A stretch of DNA of 64,000 nucleotides from Thermococcus profundus (GTDB taxonomy: Archaea > Methanobacteriota_B > Thermococci > Thermococcales > Thermococcaceae): contig NZ_CP014862.1 of the NCBI RefSeq assembly GCF_002214585.1, forward strand, positions 1,488,001-1,552,000, written 5' to 3'. A model generated the notes under the pieces. It searched no databases. It worked only from the letters and a program-made list of their open reading frames with translations, and had not been told where the DNA came from. Both the position numbers and the translations under genes were made by a program. Positions 44,539 to 47,232 of the stretch are shown here, one piece after another (the stretch's first letter is position 1; each line of letters starts with the position of its first letter).

Positions 44539-46859
<2,321 letters not shown>

Positions 46860-46902
46860 GATGAACACCTCCATACATGAGCCCAAAGCTGGACATCTAA
46901 AG

Positions 46903-46939
46903 GTTCACAACTTTAGGTACTTATAAACCTGTTGTTAAC
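46903..46939 (-). promoter_or_regulatory. Nfn-type operon promoter with two SurR-type motifs
   Basis: GTTCACAAC (46903-46911) and GTTGTTAAC (46931-46939) both match GTT-N3-AAC, the SurR recognition motif. Between them is a TATA (TTATAAA, 46921-46927) read on the minus strand toward 46859. The upstream copy adjoins the BRE. The downstream copy is near the start. SurR is the sulfur-responsive redox regulator of Thermococcales. Dual sites around a promoter suggest activation and repression. SurR control of this operon is inferred. Confidence 0.65.
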
Positions 46940-47025
46940 CAAAGGTTAAGAATTTGGAAGCATCCTCGGACAACGGGAGAAAGGATTAAAAAACATTCGT
47001 GAAGATTGCCGAAGGGGGAAACAAG

Positions 47026-47232
47026 ATGGGAAGGTGGATATACCAAATCTCAGTGGTTCTGACGGCAATCTCGCTCTTTTGGCCGATCATCTACGGCAAC
47101 GTCTCCGCGCTACGGAGGTTGCCCGGCAATCCAGTCCTCCAGGCGGTCGCTGGTGTTCTGCTCTTCGGGGCGATTGCATATATCACCTTTGAAGAGGGTG
47201 AGGAAATGGAGGAAGGAATCACAGCTTCCTGA
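47026..47232 (+). CDS. Small membrane protein, 68 aa
   Basis: This is a small protein with two hydrophobic helices (YQISVVLTAISLFWPIIYG and VLQAVAGVLLFGAIAYITF) and an acidic C-terminus (EEGEEMEEG). The start ATG 47026 follows GAAGGGGG. It has no recognised family. The 3' end overlaps the convergent trmI gene by 14 bases. It could be a regulator or accessory component, with no evidence either way. Confidence 0.55.
   Translation: MGRWIYQISVVLTAISLFWPIIYGNVSALRRLPGNPVLQAVAGVLLFGAIAYITFEEGEEMEEGITAS

Follow-up and report, generated by a model that had tools for sequence, protein, structure and literature searches.

A Conserved Promoter with SurR-Type Sites Before the NfnII/Xfn Operon of Thermococcus profundus, Probably Repressed by SurR and Released by Sulfur

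Introduction

Does the sulfur switch of Thermococcus profundus act on the enzyme that balances NADPH and ferredoxin, and if so, in which direction? The question is raised by a promoter in the 64,000-nt stretch of the genome analysed here (the window; contig NZ_CP014862.1, positions 1,488,001 to 1,552,000), in which two matches to GTTn3AAC, the motif of the regulator SurR, stand on either side of a TATA box that belongs to an operon on the minus strand. The SurR regulon of Pyrococcus furiosus was reportedly described by Lipscomb in 2009 and 2017; the regulator family and the motif are the same as here. The motif alone is no proof of control: a passage in PMC8595942 counts it in 170 promoters of T. 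piezophilus, and the mbs promoter of T. aciditolerans, with two sites, shows no sulfur response according to a passage in PMC12401011. Our reading, to which we give a probability of about 0.87, is that this is the SurR-controlled promoter of an nfnII/xfn (FNOR1-type) operon, repressed by reduced SurR and freed by sulfur.

Operon and Encoded Enzyme

45984-46859, minus strand: gene of the NfnII/Xfn small subunit, 291 aa from the ATG at 46859; best PDB match 5vj7_B (E 9.6e-139), with 5jca_S (NfnI) at E 2.5e-63
44539-45987, minus strand: gene of the NfnII/Xfn large subunit, 482 aa; best PDB match 5vj7_A (E 5.2e-250), with 5jca_L at E 2.4e-224

The entry 5VJ7 is, we assume, the Xfn structure. Both subunits are nearer to it than to the classical NAD-dependent NfnI (nearest to 5JCA/5JFC), which was rejected as the identity of the enzyme. 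The description of the locus as an Nfn-type operon, given in a sequence-only reading that preceded this analysis, thus stands for a ferredoxin:NADP oxidoreductase but not for a classical NAD-dependent Nfn: judged by their matches, the two subunits form the NfnII/Xfn isoform. In passages of a review (PMC6405883), 5JCA and 5VJ7 are given as the two enzymes of P. furiosus, and NfnII of that species is described as acting on ferredoxin and NADP independently of NAD, with no NAD-dependent activity. The same passages attribute NfnII genes to all sequenced Thermococcales species, whereas among the 94 genomes of the family, two (G073 and G078, 99% completeness) gave no NfnII-type match of the small subunit.

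A second Nfn is encoded in the same genome (C1:55974-58229). It matches 5JCA at 9e-69 and 5VJ7 at 1.3e-52 and is close to neither. It was taken as NfnIII because G029, which we take to be T. piezophilus, has an Nfn of the same type 17 kb away from NfnII. The locus tags of T. piezophilus, in the part of PMC8595942 that lists them, suggest an NfnIII-type operon near NfnII, at about this distance.

Promoter Layout

46945-46953, minus strand: outer part of the composite upstream operator, ATTCTTAAC, one mismatch to GTTn3AAC; a perfect GTTn3AAC is found here in 22 of 81 NfnII and 59 of 60 NfnIII promoters
46937-46947, minus strand: AACn5GTT core of the upstream operator, AACCTTTGGTT; in the same place in 75 of 81 NfnII promoters and, of the 60 NfnIII promoters anchored, in 59
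46931-46947, plus strand: long SurR motif GTTn3AACn5GTT; 31 matches genome-wide, where the reversed control pattern has 5
46931-46939, minus strand: upstream SurR-type site, GTTAACAAC on the operon strand, exact on the plus strand as GTTGTTAAC; its AAC is in the BRE position
46920-46927, minus strand: TATA box TTTATAAG; TTTATAA in all 81 NfnII promoters
46903-46911, minus strand: downstream SurR-type site, GTTGTGAAC on the operon strand, exact on the plus strand as GTTCACAAC; placed after the TATA box and before the expected start of transcription
46881-46894, minus strand: leader palindrome GNNCAn4TGNNC, GTCCAGCTTTGGGC, directly past the expected transcription start; in 77 of 81 NfnII leaders
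46866-46872, minus strand: ribosome-binding site GGAGGTG, by sequence inspection

On the operon strand, the order is ATTCTTAAC-CTTTG-GTTAACAAC, AGG, TTTATAAG, GTTGTGAAC, and the leader with GGAGGTG, followed by the ATG at 46859. The two GTT-N3-AAC sites said to flank the TATA box of the minus-strand operon are indeed exact, at 46903-46911 and 46931-46939, with the box at 46920-46927 between them. What had been overlooked is that the upstream site has the long form (46931-46947). Moreover, the upstream operator is a 23-bp composite (46931-46953): its outermost half-site carries one mismatch (ATT for GTT), and its last half-site, AAC, occupies the BRE position immediately 5' of TTTATAA. GTTn3AACn5GTT is the published long SurR form, as quoted in passages of PMC8595942 and PMC12162507.

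Conservation of the Sites

A single match to GTTn3AAC is little evidence, as the motif occurs 19 times in the whole window, where 11.2 are expected, a number reached in 4 of 100 shuffles. In the 102-nt stretch that holds the promoter of the window, at least one site arose in 7% of 20,000 dinucleotide shuffles and at least two in 0.16%. The small subunit was matched in 86 of the 94 family genomes at E <= 1e-40, with all isoforms pooled. The comparison was made on 81 NfnII promoters, i.e., that of the window and 80 regions upstream of full-length NfnII-type matches (>400 bits); the partial match of G052 is left out of this set, and 12 named MAG loci are in no count. Over the same stretch, at least one site is present in 75 of these promoters and at least two in 46, in counts that are not independent, since the genomes share a common ancestry. 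In 200 shuffles of the set, the corresponding means were 4.6 (maximum 12) and 0.1 (maximum 1).

The position of the sites relative to the BRE and the TATA box is kept as well. Counted from TTTATAA, GTTn3AAC lies at -26 in 22 promoters, at -12 in 43 and at +16 in 60, with one stray; AACn5GTT lies at -20 in 75 of the 81, and the GTT at -12 is invariant. There are exceptions: a perfect downstream site is absent in 21 promoters, a perfect upstream site in 22, and any perfect site in six (L059, L067, L070, L075, L082 and L083). The operator core is retained down to 60% identity of the small subunit. In a control with 64 palindromic patterns, ACCn3GGT was also common (67 of 81 promoters); this pattern lies within the AACCnnnGGTT core, as its inner part. 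That the matches are chance hits to a consensus so short that it exceeds expectation in the window and appears in 7% of the shuffles of this A+T-rich promoter has a negligible probability, given that 75 of the 81 orthologs have sites in the promoter, at exact spacing, where shuffling yields a mean of 4.6. Both sites are real and conserved, and look like SurR binding sites.

The regulator itself is encoded in the same genome. The surR gene (L101:634-1350, minus strand) matches PF0095 at E 3.4e-86 and is divergent to the gene of Pdo; the CxxC near the N-terminus of the protein is CTEC. The assignment of the sites to the SurR type thus agrees, as far as sequence can tell, with fixed positions and with a SurR encoded beside Pdo.

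The same geometry is not found everywhere. Genus g3, presumably Pyrococcus, has nfnII promoters unlike that of the window: two perfect sites occur in none of nine, the downstream site only in three, a distant site only in one, and none in five. For T. piezophilus, PMC8595942 gives, in the passage concerned, 44 and 72 nt as the distances between the start codon and the two sites of the NfnII/Xfn promoter, which are those of the window; both sites are listed there as short, while the upstream site of the window is long. The passage counts Nfn among the genes under negative SurR control.

Direction of Control

The nearest described system is that of T. kodakarensis. SurR reportedly controls its FNOR1 and FNOR2 operons (Hidese et al. 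2017, Extremophiles 21:903), each promoter having one upstream and one downstream site. Repression of FNOR1 is said to require both sites, and at FNOR2 the upstream site is said to be activating and the downstream site repressing. The operon type is the same, but the window is from another species and its sites are predicted from sequence.

In G024, which we take to be T. kodakarensis, the ortholog has a small subunit 92% identical to that of the window, and its two perfect NfnII sites have the same letters and spacing. The start of surR (954,261) and that of the NfnII gene (1,171,834) are 217.6 kb apart, which presumably corresponds, at about 906 bases per gene, to 240 genes, from TK1086 to TK1326. 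By this distance, the NfnII genes of G024 would be TK1325-TK1326, that is, FNOR1, and the enzyme of the window corresponds to FNOR1 by position. The only other Nfn match of G024, of NfnIII type, is 525 kb from surR; 543 kb is expected for TK1685 (~18 kb off), and this match was taken as FNOR2. SurR of T. kodakarensis is TK1086, according to a passage in PMC4247193.

FNOR1 is more abundant with sulfur and FNOR2 without it, as reported in a passage of PMC12016516; reduced SurR activates FNOR2 according to one in PMC12401011, and the review passages describe nfnII expression in P. furiosus as raised with sulfur (PMC6405883). Because the position-matched FNOR1 is more abundant with sulfur, the net action of SurR here is most likely repression, lifted by sulfur. 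The AAC of the upstream operator in the BRE position fits with this as well. The direction, as we infer it, rests on passages of secondary papers and on what the primary paper is said to report.

An upstream site that activates and a downstream site that represses, as proposed in the sequence-only reading, would be the alternative, and the NfnIII promoters bear on it. Sixty of these were fetched and, with that of the own genome, make 61; anchoring failed for one (L120), which was set aside, leaving 60 for the counts. A GTT stands 14 nt before TATAA in 60 of 61 NfnIII and in all 81 NfnII promoters; as anchoring of the NfnIII set required this very spacing, what informs here is the one promoter that failed. 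The upstream core thus has the same distance from TATAA in both, and FNOR2, matched to NfnIII, is activated by reduced SurR (passage in PMC12401011), which speaks for such dual control. The half-sites around the core are opposite: among the NfnIII promoters, the outer site is retained in 59 of 60, and the AAC on the BRE side is present in none (0 of 60). Their TATA boxes differ too, as the octamer TTTATAAA or TTTATAAG is found in all 81 NfnII and in none of the 60 NfnIII promoters, and TTTATAA in none of the latter. Together with the abundance of FNOR1 with sulfur (PMC12016516, in the passage cited above), this makes dual control quite improbable, and the direction of the upstream site was probably misassigned.

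Among the 81 NfnII promoters, the BRE-side site is perfect in 43, the outer site in 22, both in 6 and neither in 22. The upstream operator of nfnII therefore exists in two registers across species (L021-L100), BRE-side only in 37 of 81 and outer only in 16 of 81. The downstream site lies 14 nt after TATAA in 60 of 81 NfnII promoters; in the NfnIII promoters, it lies 12 nt after in 41 of 60, 13 in one and 14 in four, and 14 have none. The 20 NfnI promoters have, by inspection, other arrangements. Our hypothesis is that the sign of SurR control is set by the half-site beside the TATA box and by the strength of that box; if so, a different behaviour would be expected of the 16 NfnII promoters that have the outer form alone.

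Repression by SurR, the preferred reading, would proceed as follows. Without sulfur, reduced SurR would be bound to the composite operator ending in the BRE and also to the second operator, which lies downstream of the TATA box and ahead of the transcription start. Bound there, it would keep TBP, TFB and RNA polymerase from assembling on the strong TATA box. With sulfur, the CxxC of SurR would be oxidised and SurR released, and the ferredoxin:NADP oxidoreductase would be made. We infer the binding of SurR, the direction of its control and this blocking mechanism for the promoter of the window.

The Divergent Small Gene

47026-47229, plus strand: small ORF of 67-68 aa, divergent to nfnII, with two hydrophobic stretches by eye

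The operators could also serve this gene, as a homolog is divergent to nfnII, with match edges at most 236 bp away, in 39 of the 46 genomes with a match (adjacency was measured in 41, the five left out being weak matches with E 4e-4 to 9e-4). Such a double role is unlikely: two NfnII promoters of genus g2 (L027 and L094) have two sites though their genomes gave no match to the small protein, and inspection by eye shows a TATA-like, A+T-rich stretch belonging to the gene itself near 46986.

The Leader Palindrome

A second conserved element is GNNCAn4TGNNC. Measured from TATAA, it lies 31-33 nt downstream in 77 of the 81 NfnII promoters and 27-30 nt downstream in 45 of the 60 NfnIII promoters. 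The runner-up palindrome of the same form reaches only 10 of 81 and 5 of 60 leaders. Across the whole window, the pattern is not enriched (12 found, 13.4 expected). In the own genome, the NfnIII palindrome is at L002:612-629, and GTGAACAn4TGTTCAC without mismatch is found only at NfnIII.

An RNA hairpin in the NfnII leader was considered and rejected: there is no covariation, and 222 of 280 dyad cells pair, against a shuffled mean of 220.7 and maximum of 233 (56 distinct leaders). An Rfam search over the window returned a tRNA and a C/D-box snoRNA only, both elsewhere than the leader. A wide palindrome regulon was likewise rejected, as TATAA followed by the palindrome at 19-29 nt is found at six places in the own genome, while the reversed control gives two. 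The NfnII and NfnIII promoters account for two of the six. Another, a TATA box with the leader palindrome at L186:1501-1541 (G000:C1:1223062-1223102), ends 18 bases before an ORF with a 4Fe-4S ferredoxin-like motif.

Among the papers listed on palindromic binding motifs of Thermococcales, none is plainly about GNNCAn4TGNNC; it may be described elsewhere. Tentatively, the palindrome might be the operator of a second regulator that tunes both NfnII and NfnIII, with the sign of SurR control set by the outer half-site that is kept (BRE side for repression, far side for activation) and by TATA strength, and not by the distance between core and TATA box; we regard this combined proposal as doubtful.

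Conclusions

The observation that started this analysis is correct and its choice of regulator is likely correct; control of this kind is already known for such operons. That the NADPH/ferredoxin balance is under the sulfur switch, as had been suggested, appears likely because of the conserved SurR-type sites, the SurR encoded beside Pdo in the same genome and the identity of the operon as that of a ferredoxin:NADP oxidoreductase. What is added here is the fixed geometry, the difference in half-site and TATA box between NfnII and NfnIII, and a conserved leader palindrome. The comparison of 81 promoters indicates that the sulfur switch of the Thermococcaceae very likely acts on an enzyme of NADPH/ferredoxin exchange, through a promoter of nearly fixed geometry. 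Furthermore, the contrast between NfnII and NfnIII at equal distance of core and TATA box bears on how the same archaeal regulator can act as a repressor at one promoter and as an activator at another.
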